Positions 52,674 through 64,000 of a stretch of DNA of 64,000 nucleotides are shown here, piece after piece; position 1 is the first letter of the stretch; every line of letters starts with the position of its first letter. The stretch is taken from assembly GCA_006218025.1 (NCBI GenBank), contig VBWA01000042.1, positions 1 to 64,000 of the forward strand, in the 5' to 3' direction. The stretch comes from Rhodocyclaceae bacterium (GTDB lineage Bacteria > Pseudomonadota > Gammaproteobacteria > Burkholderiales > Rhodocyclaceae). Below the pieces are notes generated by a model. It had not been told where the DNA came from and searched no databases. It saw nothing but the letters and a program-made list of their open reading frames with translations. Made by a program: the position numbers and the translations under genes.

Positions 52674-52701
52674 GGGTGCGCGCTGCGCACCCTTTTTTTT
52701 T
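52674..52701 (+). terminator. Strong intrinsic terminator after ccoS
   Basis: GGGTGCGC / GCGCACCC (8-bp stem, 3-nt loop) followed by nine T. It separates the ccoIS unit from the island. The remaining non-coding stretch to 52910 holds another hairpin (CCGGGA/TCCCGG near 52708) and no gene I can support. Confidence 0.88.
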
Positions 52702-52910
52702 GGTGCGCCCGGGACGGTATCCCGGCGATGGGTGCGCAGTCGATTGCGCTGCGGGCGGCGCCCCCCCCTCGAATACCCGCCTGAAATTGCCCCGGAAGGT
52801 TCTTGCGGGTAGCATCCATCGATAGTGGCGACAAGCGTGCCGCCCCAGTCGGGCGATTGGTCCTGCTTCGTTTGCCGCCACTTATTCACATGAGGAGTCG
52901 AAACCTGGCC

Positions 52911-54746
52911 ATGAGGCAGATACTCGATAGTGTCGGAGAACGCATGGGCCGTATCCTGCCCAGGCTCGAGCCCGTCCTTTTCCCCTTGCACCGCGGCTTT
53001 ACCTACCGGGTCGCCATCGTGCTGATTCTGGTGACAATCGCATTTGTTGTGCGGCGTCTGATTGGCCCCCCCGAGTTTGGAGTGCCATTCCTCACCTTTT
53101 TCCCCGCCGCGGCGATCTCGGCGGTTTTCGGCGGATTCTGGGCCGGCATGCTGGCGACGGCGCTGGGATCGATAGCGGCGACGTATTTTTTCCTGCCCCC
53201 GTATTCCATGTTCTCGTTCGAGTTCCGTTACGAAACGGTGTTCAGCAACATCGTCTATATCCTCGACGAAATCGTGGTCTGTTCGGCGATCGCTGCCTTG
53301 CATCGCTTTTACCGAGTTAGCAAGGACCAGAACGCCGAACTGAAGACATTGATCCAGACCATTCCCGACCTGATCTGGCTGAAGAATCCCGAGGGTGTGT
53401 ATCTGGAGTTCAATCCCGCCATAGAGCGGTTCTACGGATTGCGCAGGGATACAGTCATTGGCAGGACAACGCGTGACTTGTTTCCAGACGCGGTGGCCAC
53501 GGCCATTCAGCGGCAGGATCAGGCGGCGCTGACTGCGGATGGACCCCAAACGAACGAGGAATGGGTTATCCGCACCAGCGACGGAAGTCGTGTGCTCCTG
53601 GAGACCACCACGACCCCGATGCGTACCGTCGATGGCACGCTGATCGGCGTGCTGGGGATTGCGCGCGACATCACCGAGAGCCGGCTTCTGGAAGACCAGC
53701 TTCGTGCGCATACCTTGGAACTTGAGCGGGAGCGCACGTTTCTCGGGGCGATTTTCGAGCATACCGGTGACGGTATCCTGGCGGTGGACGGCGCGGGCAA
53801 TATCGCTCTGGCCAACCAAAGCGCGCGGCGCCTGCTGGGCATGACCGAGGGCGACCTGCGCCGCCGTCTGGTCGAATTCTGGTCCGAGTGGCCGGCAATT
53901 GCAGACGAAACCGCCGATCGTGCGGCAACACGTCGCGATCTGGACACTGCCGGGCACGTTCTCGCCCTGTCGGTCACACGCACCGGCGAACCTGGGGAAA
54001 CCCGTTACGTGATTGTCGCCCGCGATGTCAGCGAGGAACATCGACTCGCTGACGAGCGCCGTGAGCTCGACCGCCAGATGTTCCAGATGGAGAACATGGC
54101 GACCCTGGGCGAGCTGGCGATGGGCGTGGCCCATGAAATCGGCAATCCTCTTGCCGGCATGAAGGCGGTGGCCCAGTCGCTGCAATACGAGGACGACCTT
54201 CCGGCGGATACCCGCGAAGCGTTGCGCCGACTCGAGGCGGAGATCGACCGCCTCGGCGACTTTCTGCGCAGTTTTCATGGTTTTGCCGCGCCGCAGCGCG
54301 CACATCCCGTCCCCTGCCGTTTGCGCGACATCGTGGAGGACATCCTGTTCTGGATTCGCAAGGAGGCGGTATCCCACGACGTGGCCATTGGTCTGGCCAT
54401 CGACGAACATCTGTCGGTGCGCGCCGATCCCAACCAGATCAAACAGGTGTTGCTGAACCTGGTCGTCAATGCCATTCACGCCATGCCGCATGGAGGCGCG
54501 CTACGCATCGCTGCGACCAATGACGCGGGTAACGGCGTGCGGATCGAGGTCGCCGATACTGGAGGAGGGATCGGCGCCGATGTCCTGCCGAGAATCTTCG
54601 ACCCTTTCTTTACCACGCGCGCCACAGGCTCAGGCCTCGGCCTCGCCGTCGTGAAAAAGATCGTCACTGAGCATGACGCGCAGATTGAAGTTAGGAGTCA
54701 GGCCGGGCATGGCTCCTGCTTTACTCTGCTCTGGCCAGCGGCCTAG
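52911..54746 (+). CDS. pcrS: Membrane PAS sensor histidine kinase of the perchlorate island (PcrS-like)
   Basis: A 611-residue kinase. Four membrane helices make a DUF4118/KdpD-like module (residues ~33-127, [20 protein letters not shown]), followed by two PAS domains (~140-250 and ~275-385; [20 protein letters not shown] and [20 protein letters not shown]), an H-box ([18 protein letters not shown], His408) and a HATPase domain ([36 protein letters not shown]). I chose the ATG at 52911 (MRQILDSVG); an ATG at 52890 is an alternative, and AGGAG lies between them. It is 14 nt before the sigma-54 regulator. The symbol is by position and domain match to the perchlorate-island regulator; the signal sensed is unknown. 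Confidence 0.85.
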
Positions 54747-54760
54747 CTGGAGTTGCCGAC

Positions 54761-61750: not shown

Positions 61751-62559
61751 ATGAGTAAAAAATTCTTCAGGAGCCCGCGAGCGACAGTCGTGATCGGAGC
61801 GGCAATTGCCGCCCTGGCGGCGGGGATGCCTTCGCTTGCTGTCGCGCAACAGGCGACTGGCGACAACATAATGATCGAGCGGGCCAAGATTCTCGTCCAG
61901 CCAGGCGTTTTCGGCGTCTTCACCATGTTCAAGCTGCGGCCTGAGTGGTCCGGTGTGCCCGCCAAAGAGCGCATGAAAGCAGCCGCCGAAGTCAATCAAC
62001 TGATCGAGAAGCACAAGAACAATGTGCTGGTCGATGTCTATCTGACGCGTGGTTTGGAGACTGGCTCCGATTTCTTCTTCCGCGTCCATGCCTATGATCT
62101 GGCCAAGGCACAGACCTTCATGCGCCAGTTCCGCTCGACCAGCATCGGCAGGAATGCAGATGTTTCCGAGACGCTGGTTGGTTTGACCAAGGCCCTGAAC
62201 TACATTACGAAGACCGACTCGCCCGGCCTCAATGCGGGCCTGAGCTCGGCCAGTTATACGGGGCCGGCCCCGCGCTACACAGTGGTTGTTCCGGTGAAGA
62301 AGAGCGCCGAGTGGTGGAATATTCCGGTTGACCAGCGGCTGCGGGAAATGGAAGCCCATACTGCGCCGACGCTCGCCTACCTGGTGAATGTCAAACGCAA
62401 GCTCTACCACTCCACCGGGATCGATGACACCGATTTCATAACCTGATGATCTCGCTGGCTTCGGTTCCAGAGAACAAATATCACGTTCGCTGGGGCAGCC
62501 CAACGGTACTTGGAACGATCCATAGCGCAGAAGACGTTTTCAAAGCCTTGGCAGAGTAA
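61751..62559 (+). pseudogene. cld: Chlorite dismutase, C-terminus frameshifted by an apparent 37-nt deletion
   Basis: Cld turns toxic chlorite to chloride and O2 in the periplasm. The frame starting at 61751 (AAAGGAG Shine-Dalgarno, signal peptide ending VAQQ) encodes a close match to dissimilatory Cld, with Trp188-Trp189, proximal haem His203 (His170 in the mature enzyme) and distal Arg216 (Arg183). It stops at 62446 right after [12 protein letters not shown]. The lost end is still present in another frame (62440-62559: [19 protein letters not shown] ... DVFKALAE). Compared with homologues 13 codons are reduced to 2 nt: a 37-nt deletion, plausibly between two AACC copies. The product lacks about 50 residues including Glu220, which pairs with the proximal His. 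Confidence 0.88.
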
Positions 62560-62938
62560 TTAGCCAGACGTCGGGTCACCTGGCTCCAGGTCAACTGGAA
62601 CTCAGCGTGAGCATCGCATCTCGAACAACAAAAATGGCCGCACGGCATATAGCGATCGAAAGTCCGTCGCGCCAGCAAGCCGTTGGGTGACATTTGAGGC
62701 GGTCGAGCGCAAAGCATTCGCTACTGGGCTTGCTGGTCGTAAGGAAGACGAGCACGAATGAGGCACCGTTTAGAGTGCGGTCTGAGTCAGTCGCTTAGTA
62801 GTTACGGCCGCTGCGCTTAACGCTGATAGACGTGGTGTTAGTGGATCCCGACTTTGGCTCCCGTCACGGAGTCATTGTTGCAGCGCGAGGACCGAGTATT
62901 CCCCGCGACAAAGAGGATGAAATGGTGGAGCGCCGGTC
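62560..62938. other. Non-coding stretch between cld and nrsF
   Basis: A 379-bp region with no gene I can support on either strand. It lies between the convergent cld and nrsF genes. A short minus-strand open frame (62481-62717) reads partly antisense to cld and is rejected. No transposase remnant or attachment repeat was recognised. Confidence 0.6.
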
Positions 62939-63580
62939 CTACCAACGCAACAACAGGCGCCCGCTCAACGCCCCCACTGCAGCCGGAATCAACATGCCCA
63001 GCAGGTACCAGAAACCGAGGAAGGGCGCCTCCATTTCCGGACAGTGAATGCAATACACCAAGGCGCCGGTTGTCCCGGCAAGCAGCCCGGCGGCAGCACC
63101 GGCAAGTCTCAACCGTGTCGGCGCAAGACCTCTCATTGCCCATATCGTTGAGCCGAAAACCGGTACCGACAGCATGGCGATGAGGAAGGGGCAAACAGCC
63201 CACGTATCCCCCAAGAACAGCCTCGTACGTTGCAGTGGGTCGGCATTGATCAAGACGACCGCGGCGAGTATCCAGACGGCCAATACGGGCGCCACAAGTG
63301 CTGAAGGTACCCTGCCCAGCCTTCTTCCTGGTTGCGAGAGGCGCAATGCCAGCACCAGACTGGCTATGGTCACGCACGTCACGACCCCGGCCTTGATCCA
63401 GAATCTGGGAAGGAATAGGGCGTGTGCGAGATCTGTGCGAACGCCGAGAAGCATGACCATCAGCAAAATTGCACCCGTCGCCCCGAAAAAGAGCGCTGCC
63501 GCGTAGCGGCGGGCCGCGACGTTGGTATCAACAGGCCCCGTCCCGGTTGCGAGCATCGTGATTAGGTCGTCAGTTCTCAT
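62939..63580 (-). CDS. nrsF: NrsF-type anti-sigma factor (DUF1109)
   Basis: A 213-residue membrane protein with six hydrophobic helices, the DUF1109 pattern (N-terminal [20 protein letters not shown], six helices, [14 protein letters not shown] loop). In perchlorate reducers NrsF holds SigF inactive and responds to reactive chlorine. Cysteines that could act as redox sensors are seen, including the pair CIHC ([13 protein letters not shown]). It starts at 63580 with GGGAGGA upstream; its ATG overlaps the sigF stop (ATGA). Confidence 0.87.
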
Positions 63581-64000
63581 GTGTCCTCCCTTACCTTTGC
63601 AGCGAGCGCTTTCAGCCCTCGATGTACGCCCACCTTGACCGCGGATTCCGACATACCTGTGATCTGTGCCGTCGCCGCCACCGATAGCCCACCGAGCTTC
63701 ATGTGGATGATCGGCAACCGCTGTCGATCGGGCAGTTGGTCCAGCAGTTTGTCCAGATCGCGTCTCGCTTCGGCAGCGTCTTCGTCCGCCGAAAAGAAGT
63801 CGCCCAAATCGTCCAGCGAATCGGTCAGCGCCTCGCGATGCGACCGTCGCCGTAACATATCGATCAGCTTGTACTTCGCAATTGCGTGTACCCACGATGT
63901 CAGCGGCTGATCCACGTCGTATGTGTGGCGCTGGTTATGCACGGCCAACAAAGTTTCCTGCACAAGATCCTCGGCCTCAGTTGACAATTGGGCAAGCCGC
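63577..64000 (-). CDS. sigF: ECF sigma factor SigF (partial, runs off window)
   Basis: The 3' part of an ECF sigma factor; the 5' end lies beyond 64000. Region 2 ([40 protein letters not shown]) and region 4 ([39 protein letters not shown]) are intact. Paired with a DUF1109 anti-sigma factor, it fits the SigF/NrsF type that drives a reactive-chlorine/methionine-sulfoxide repair response. It is transcribed toward cld, with nrsF translationally coupled behind it. Confidence 0.87.

Follow-up and report, generated by a model that had tools for sequence, protein, structure and literature searches.

The DNA analysed here (the window) comprises positions 1-64000 of contig C122 (VBWA01000042.1), which runs to 108,559 and belongs to the 4.44-Mb, 141-contig draft assembly of a Rhodocyclaceae bacterium. 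The contig harbours an 18.3-kb inserted block, situated within the cbb3 oxidase cluster, with ccoS on its left and fnr-ccoNOP on its right, which is best read (probability about 0.72) as a composite island for perchlorate and chlorate respiration, with two predicted reductases, Pcr and Clr, and one chlorite dismutase (Cld) that both would share. The initial annotation had described a perchlorate island made up of pcrS-pcrR, pcrABCD, cld and sigF-nrsF between 52700 and 64000. All of these genes were recovered at the places given, on the evidence of open reading frames (ORFs) and profiles, and the start of the block agrees with the edge obtained from empty sites. Its end, however, had been set too early, as the block continues to contig position ~70,979 with cld2, the clr operon and a scar, and the cld inside the window proved to be truncated and frameshifted, the intact copy being found only past 64000. 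Feature coordinates are collected in Table 1.

The best solved match of PcrA is the Azospira enzyme 4ydd (1744 bits over 890 residues), and a quick maximum-likelihood tree, built from 40 molybdenum enzymes and with support from the Shimodaira-Hasegawa-like approximate likelihood ratio test (SH-aLRT) only, places it inside the PcrA clade (support 100) together with the proteins of Dechloromonas, Denitromonas, Magnetospirillum and Sedimenticola; ClrA1, NarG and two further reductases encoded in the same genome lie apart. The clustering with chlorate, selenate or steroid enzymes by which the initial annotation would have been refuted did not occur. By 4ydd numbering, F164, D170 and W461 are kept, and position 165 is Phe in this protein, as it is for 22 out of 23 PcrA loci compared (L014-L036), the solved Azospira chain having Tyr there; positions F164, F165, D170 and W461 are presumably those of the "aromatic gate". 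The operon is preceded by pcrS and pcrR on one strand, PcrR being 36% identical to its match in two Dechloromonas loci. A scan for sigma-54 promoters returned 13 sites with at least 9 of 12 consensus positions, against a mean of ~11 in 20 mononucleotide shuffles; with a margin so small, only the 11/12 site at a conserved place was used, which recurs at an equal distance ahead of pcrA in L014 and in G156, a genome of another genus, and is weaker in L015 and L016. No moaA was found in the block, where no gap between assigned genes exceeds 694 nt (64147-64840), which would not accommodate a MoaA of ~330 amino acids (no radical-SAM profile was run).

The two chlorite dismutase genes differ in condition. 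The match of Cld1 to 2vxh ends at chain residue 201 of 251, and against three relatives from the genus with a 281-residue Cld the gene misses 37 nt, after which the frame is shifted and what is missing of the C-terminus can be made out in a different frame. By chain position, Cld1 keeps His 173 and Arg 186 and has lost Glu 223; these are taken here to be the catalytic residues His170, Arg183 and Glu220. The intact cld2 lies 2.4 kb beyond. In the Cld tree, cld1 joins the pcr-linked copies found in the genus (98/95); the closest neighbour of cld2 is the clr-linked copy of L024. A census was made with cld2 as the query and matches at E <= 1e-10, a search that distant Cld types could escape. It found no cld outside C122 in this genome and none in four genomes of the genus without pcr. 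The genomes with both Pcr and Clr (this one, G020, G156, L025 and L032) have exactly one intact Cld each, adjoining clrA; the pcr-linked Cld is broken in this genome and in G020, and no second Cld was found in the other three. A single, pcr-linked Cld is present in each of 13 distinct Pcr-only genomes, and the PcrA carrier G276, with no Cld found, is an exception to the one-Cld pattern.

The second reductase, encoded by clrABD and a monohaem cytochrome c gene, is probably a group 3 chlorate reductase, a label given by gene neighbourhood; a Cld-linked group 3 Clr is reported in the accessible text of Barnum and Coates 2022 (PMC9751292). In the same quick tree ClrA belongs to a clade of seven (support 100), separate from PcrA, NarG and ClrA1, whose members come from this genome, G020, G037, G156, L025, L032 and an Alisedimentitalea plasmid, and the order cld-clrA-clrB-clrD-cytochrome c is constant in all seven records. 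The twin-arginine (Tat) signal of ClrA scores just under Pfam's cut-off. The ratio of nonsynonymous to synonymous divergence (dN/dS) is ~0.03-0.10 for pcrA (four relatives) and ~0.04 for clrA (against G020), so that both genes are under purifying selection. Among 249 genomes of the family, 7 have PcrA, 3 this ClrA and 2 both, and among 399 genomes of the order only this one has it.

The gene content suggests how the block may work. PcrAB would reduce perchlorate (and chlorate), PcrC supplying the electrons, and ClrAB would take chlorate. Since Cld1 is broken, Cld2 would serve both enzymes, splitting the chlorite they produce into chloride and O2, which the adjoining cbb3 oxidase could respire. 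PcrC might receive its electrons from a NapC/NirT protein, three of which are encoded outside the block, a donor proposed because PcrQ and NapC are described as functionally redundant in Azospira in the accessible text of PMC5845722. PcrSR together with sigma-54 may drive pcrA, and SigF/NrsF may respond to reactive chlorine. A more specific scheme, held at clearly less than even odds, is a one-cell relay in which Pcr acts mainly on perchlorate, Clr on chlorate, one Cld is sufficient, cbb3 uses the O2, and the redundant Pcr-linked Cld was lost. Perchlorate reducers reportedly cross-feed chlorate reducers, and their leaking of chlorate is said to be the cause; hypothetically, a cell with both reductases would keep its own chlorate.

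The insertion site was compared within a sample of 31 genomes of the genus, in which two PcrA loci are titled Sulfuritalea. In 23 of them ccoI and ccoN lie on one contig and the site is readable; the remaining 8 are unreadable there. Four sites (this genome, G009, G020 and G021) are filled with pcr, with 11.9-20.4 kb between ccoI and ccoN, and 19 are empty, with 0.5-2.7 kb, no pcr, and rrf2-fnr in 8 of them. Nearly all empty sites place the left edge at 52,700/52,701; the right edge falls at ~70,979/70,980 (70,929 by G013 alone), and in five empty sites with rrf2-fnr the two flanks are 31-79 nt apart. In G011, the fifth carrier, pcr lies on a contig of 22 kb, with no cco gene in the stretch searched. 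At the block edges no integrase or tRNA was seen among the ORFs and features, no terminal repeats of at least 9 nt were found at the block ends, and no transposase was recognised among the ORFs at either edge, no transposase profile search having been run.

On these comparisons and those of divergence, the block is old and patchy in the genus rather than a recent import. Synonymous divergence (dS) of the pcr genes from G009, G021 and G020 is 0.35-1.09, and that of the flanking cco and SDR genes is 0.35-1.50 (the row of cld1 against G020 is omitted, the match there being the other Cld); against G011, where there is no flank for comparison, the pcr genes give 0.19-1.02. Because the dS of pcr equals that of the flanking host genes, recent arrival is unsupported, and recent transfer within the genus was ruled out as the main reading. 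Both an early gain followed by repeated loss and an exchange that included the flanking DNA would fit better. A recently arrived foreign island is therefore improbable, even if part of the horizontal arrival that had been claimed stands: the block is absent from 19 of the 23 readable sites and from G022, the pcr-free genome with which this one groups in the rpoB tree (100/100), and a single carrier clade is rejected by the approximately unbiased (AU) test (rpoB p-AU 2.4e-4, ccoN p-AU 0.0014). The rpoB tree held 20 of the 23 rows (G004, G006 and G011 were dropped) and, as G020 has no rpoB match, tested 3 carriers; the ccoN tree held 23 rows, none long, with 4 carriers. Against recent import stand the equal dS, the use of the same site in 4/4 carriers whose site is readable, and the edges, which show no integrase, tRNA or terminal repeat. 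The suggested check of GC gave a divided answer. Block genes (0.56-0.62) lie below the SDR gene (0.66) and ccoI (0.69) of the left flank, yet equal the host genes on the right (0.59-0.60) and are above ccoS on the left (just 0.54); as the block equals the right flank and the left one spans 0.54-0.69, GC is uninformative on origin, and codon use of block and flanks was compared by GC at third codon positions (GC3) only. The dispersed repeat whose absence had been taken as a sign of foreign origin is indeed not seen in the block at the threshold used, but it is also missing from ~18 kb of host DNA to the right; since the gap (~51.8 to 89 kb) includes host DNA, this absence is weak evidence. In place of the ~12 copies claimed on the left, the scan gave 7 repeat regions left and 5 right of the block. 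The repeat is ~26 nt long with the core AAAGTCGGCGCTGGCG..ACGGCG and occurs at window 2515-51821 and contig 89081-98512; one copy lies within the ccoI coding sequence.

Islands at the same site in sister species suggest how the block was put together. L015 (genome G009) and L016 (G021) have the layout ccoS-pcrSR-pcrABCD-cld-(rrf2-fnr)-ccoN, and L024 has ccoS-nrsF-sigF-cld2-clrABD-cytochrome-pcrABCD-cld-ccoN; the block described here reads pcrSR-pcrABCD-cld1, then nrsF-sigF-cld2-clrABD-cytochrome, then the scar. In the scar, 78 nt matching the upstream region and start of pcrA (90%) are joined to a cld 3' end (86%). Contig positions 70431-70545 match the cytochrome-pcrA junction of L024 (83%), and positions 70544-72845 match cld-rrf2-fnr-ccoN of L016 (80.5%). 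The simplest account would be a fusion of the two island types via shared pcr-cld sequence, after which the second pcr copy was deleted, the scar marking its loss. The promoters agree with such a fusion, as the sigma-54-type site stands before the PcrSR-type pcrA and is missing where pcrA follows clr, that is, from the scar and L024. It is unlikely that the broken cld1 and the scar are instead assembly artefacts arising from three similar cld sequences in a 141-contig draft. The sequence lost from cld1 (37 nt) and that lost from the scar (49 nt) do begin at the same base, which ends a stretch identical in both, as an artefact could leave them; yet the scar differs by 10-14% from cld1 and pcrA, its two sides match two different relatives, and G156, L025 and L032 likewise show a single intact Cld, no second cld having been found in them.

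Two further explanations concern the function of Clr. Pcr alone might do the work, Clr being a neutral passenger acquired by recombination between shared pcr-cld sequences. Perchlorate reducers can reduce chlorate as well, according to the accessible text of PMC10746228, and Pcr-only carriers are common: in a hand-picked set of 20 PcrA genomes, 15 are without this ClrA and 5 have it. A passenger is nevertheless rather doubtful in view of the low dN/dS of clrA, the co-occurrence of Clr and Pcr in G156, L025 and L032 with different gene arrangements, and the fact that the sole intact Cld is the Clr-linked copy. That the second reductase acts on another oxyanion, e.g. nitrate or selenate, would suit its identity of only 31% to ClrA1 of Alicycliphilus and 37% to PcrA, as well as the WY-x-DLP segment, similar to that of NarG, at the Asp that is the putative molybdenum ligand, but there seems little chance of it, since in 7/7 records the cld that adjoins ClrA belongs to the (per)chlorate-reducer lineage.

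Several observations weigh against the composite island with a shared Cld. ClrA scores 576 bits with TIGR03479, below the curated cut-off of 985, so that its substrate assignment rests on gene neighbourhood. The same Clr is present without pcr in G037, and G094, whose assembly has no ClrA, carries two intact Cld, one of which stops 33 nt short of a contig end. No quinol dehydrogenase gene lies in the block, the three NapC/NirT genes being elsewhere in the genome. In addition, the break in cld1 is known from one draft assembly, and the only other genome of the genus with both reductases, G020, has frame breaks in pcrA, pcrC and the host gene ccoI; because ccoI is broken too, the broken cld1 of G020 may be a sequencing error.

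Compared with known systems, the block shares the pcrABCD-cld order, sigF-nrsF, a patchy distribution and two-component regulators with a sigma-54 activator with the islands of Azospira, Dechloromonas and Magnetospirillum, as far as these are described in the accessible text of Melnyk and Coates 2015 (PMC4623255). The match to the Azospira and Dechloromonas islands that had been proposed for the reductase holds for gene order. The regulators do not match closely, being on opposite strands in that group, and the block has no counterpart of moaA, reported there from every alpha- and betaproteobacterial perchlorate island as a general finding rather than a definition. According to the same text, published islands sit at tRNA-Pro, in an integrative and conjugative element (ICE) or in a composite transposon; the present block lies inside a cbb3 cluster, lacks pcrQ as well as moaA, and has a second reductase and a second cld, the pcr-linked one being broken. 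With the group 3 Clr of PMC9751292 it shares a Cld adjoining a distinct reductase of the dimethyl sulfoxide (DMSO) reductase family. The metagenome-assembled genome GWC2_42_11 of that source likewise combines Pcr with group 3 Clr and has two Cld; here both reductases lie in one continuous betaproteobacterial block, and one Cld is broken. The clrABDC-cld composite transposon of Alicycliphilus and Ideonella also has a chlorate-type operon adjoining cld (cld2 is 74% identical), but its ClrA is in a separate clade, so the operon described here is not of that type; it has a cytochrome c gene where the Alicycliphilus operon has the gamma subunit, after the chaperone, and the flanking insertion sequences of the transposon have no counterpart among the ORFs here (no transposase profile search was run). 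The Pcr-only islands L015 and L016 occupy the same ccoS-ccoN site with the same pcrSR-pcrABCD-cld and, unlike the present block, have no Clr module and an intact cld. A literature search on Sulfuritalea and perchlorate and on ClrA3 or group 3 Clr, most subscription papers being outside it, found no description of such a block, and the words cbb3 and Sulfuritalea are absent from the accessible text of PMC9751292.

Perchlorate and chlorate respiration are usually described in different organisms with different reductases. One continuous block with both reductases, amid the genes of an oxidase that would consume the O2, makes it possible to ask what causes chlorate to leak from perchlorate reducers and whether the leak is stopped by a second reductase. 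The block also adds perchlorate islands in a Sulfuritalea-type genus, with a mapped insertion site and 19 empty controls.

Table 1. Features of the inserted block and its flanks on contig C122; positions above 64000 lie past the window.
Feature	Position	Strand	Evidence or remark
ccoI, copper-transporting P-type ATPase (host left flank)	49928..52393	+	matches at E <= 1e-250 in 28/31 genus genomes
ccoS/FixS, oxidase maturation protein (host left flank)	52393..52605	+	PF03597 3e-23
conserved structured noncoding element (host)	52606..52703	+	in 19/19 empty sites; block starts right after
inserted block	52701..64000 in window		whole block 52701 to ~70979
pcrS-like PAS histidine kinase	52890..54746	+	ORF and profile; 78-82% in three genus relatives; start codon predicted
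pcrR-like NtrC-family sigma-54 activator	54761..56131	+	profiles; 90-96% in three genus relatives
sigma-54-type -24/-12 promoter-like site TGGCACGCCGCATGCT	56233..56248	+	11/12 consensus positions
pcrA, perchlorate reductase catalytic subunit	56304..59096	+	profile, tree, 4ydd alignment
pcrB, iron-sulfur subunit	59132..60133	+	TIGR03478 above cut-off
pcrC, tetrahaem cytochrome c	60152..60913	+	PF13435; 4 CxxCH
pcrD, assembly chaperone	60948..61664	+	TIGR03482 above cut-off
cld1, chlorite dismutase broken by frameshifting deletion	61751..62446	+	231 of ~281 amino acids
nrsF, anti-sigma factor	62939..63580	-	PF06532 6e-68
sigF, extracytoplasmic function (ECF) sigma factor	63577..64000 in window, gene to 64146	-	ORF and profile
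cld2, intact chlorite dismutase	64841-65677		278 amino acids; 400 bits to 5a13
clrA, alpha subunit	65774-68317		847 amino acids
clrB, iron-sulfur subunit	68333-69199		
clrD, chaperone	69202-69945		
cytochrome c, one haem	69948-70430		
scar of another pcrA...cld unit	70466-70749		284 bp
host right flank	rrf2 70983, fnr 71561, ccoN 72839		then ccoO, ccoP, ccoG

The noncoding element at 52606-52703 may be a small RNA associated with the cbb3 cluster. When this genome and the 19 with empty sites are aligned, mean column identity is 89% and the 3' half is nearly invariant; the element, with a fold z of -5.05, contains a hairpin that covaries (two-sided changes in 3 of 26 pairs) as well as an intrinsic terminator, and it has no match in Rfam at the gathering threshold.

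Other (per)chlorate loci show arrangements of their own. In G156 (4.17-Mb contig; L091, 3178-17670) a NapC/NirT-type cytochrome gene follows pcrAB where pcrC is expected, pcrD and moaA come after it, no cld lies at the pcr operon, and the clr and pcr parts are separated by genes for a tyrosine integrase of phage type and for a small cytochrome c. Magnetospirillum sp. UT-4 (L029, 13091-15862) has, next to a standard pcr-cld cluster and on the other strand, a second PcrA-like reductase that is divergent (61%).

The present genome also encodes a third reductase, of type II, at C139:49882-52629 (L013), which scores 1322 bits with TIGR03479, is 83% identical to Alicycliphilus ClrA (a chlorate reductase, or selenate-type) and has a NapC/NirT gene ~1.2 kb upstream. 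Selenocysteine was considered for reductases with a TGA inside and rejected, the TGA on C139 being an ordinary terminal stop in the one copy of four that was read. Three other genomes of the genus have matches to PcrA of similar strength to that of the L013 reductase.

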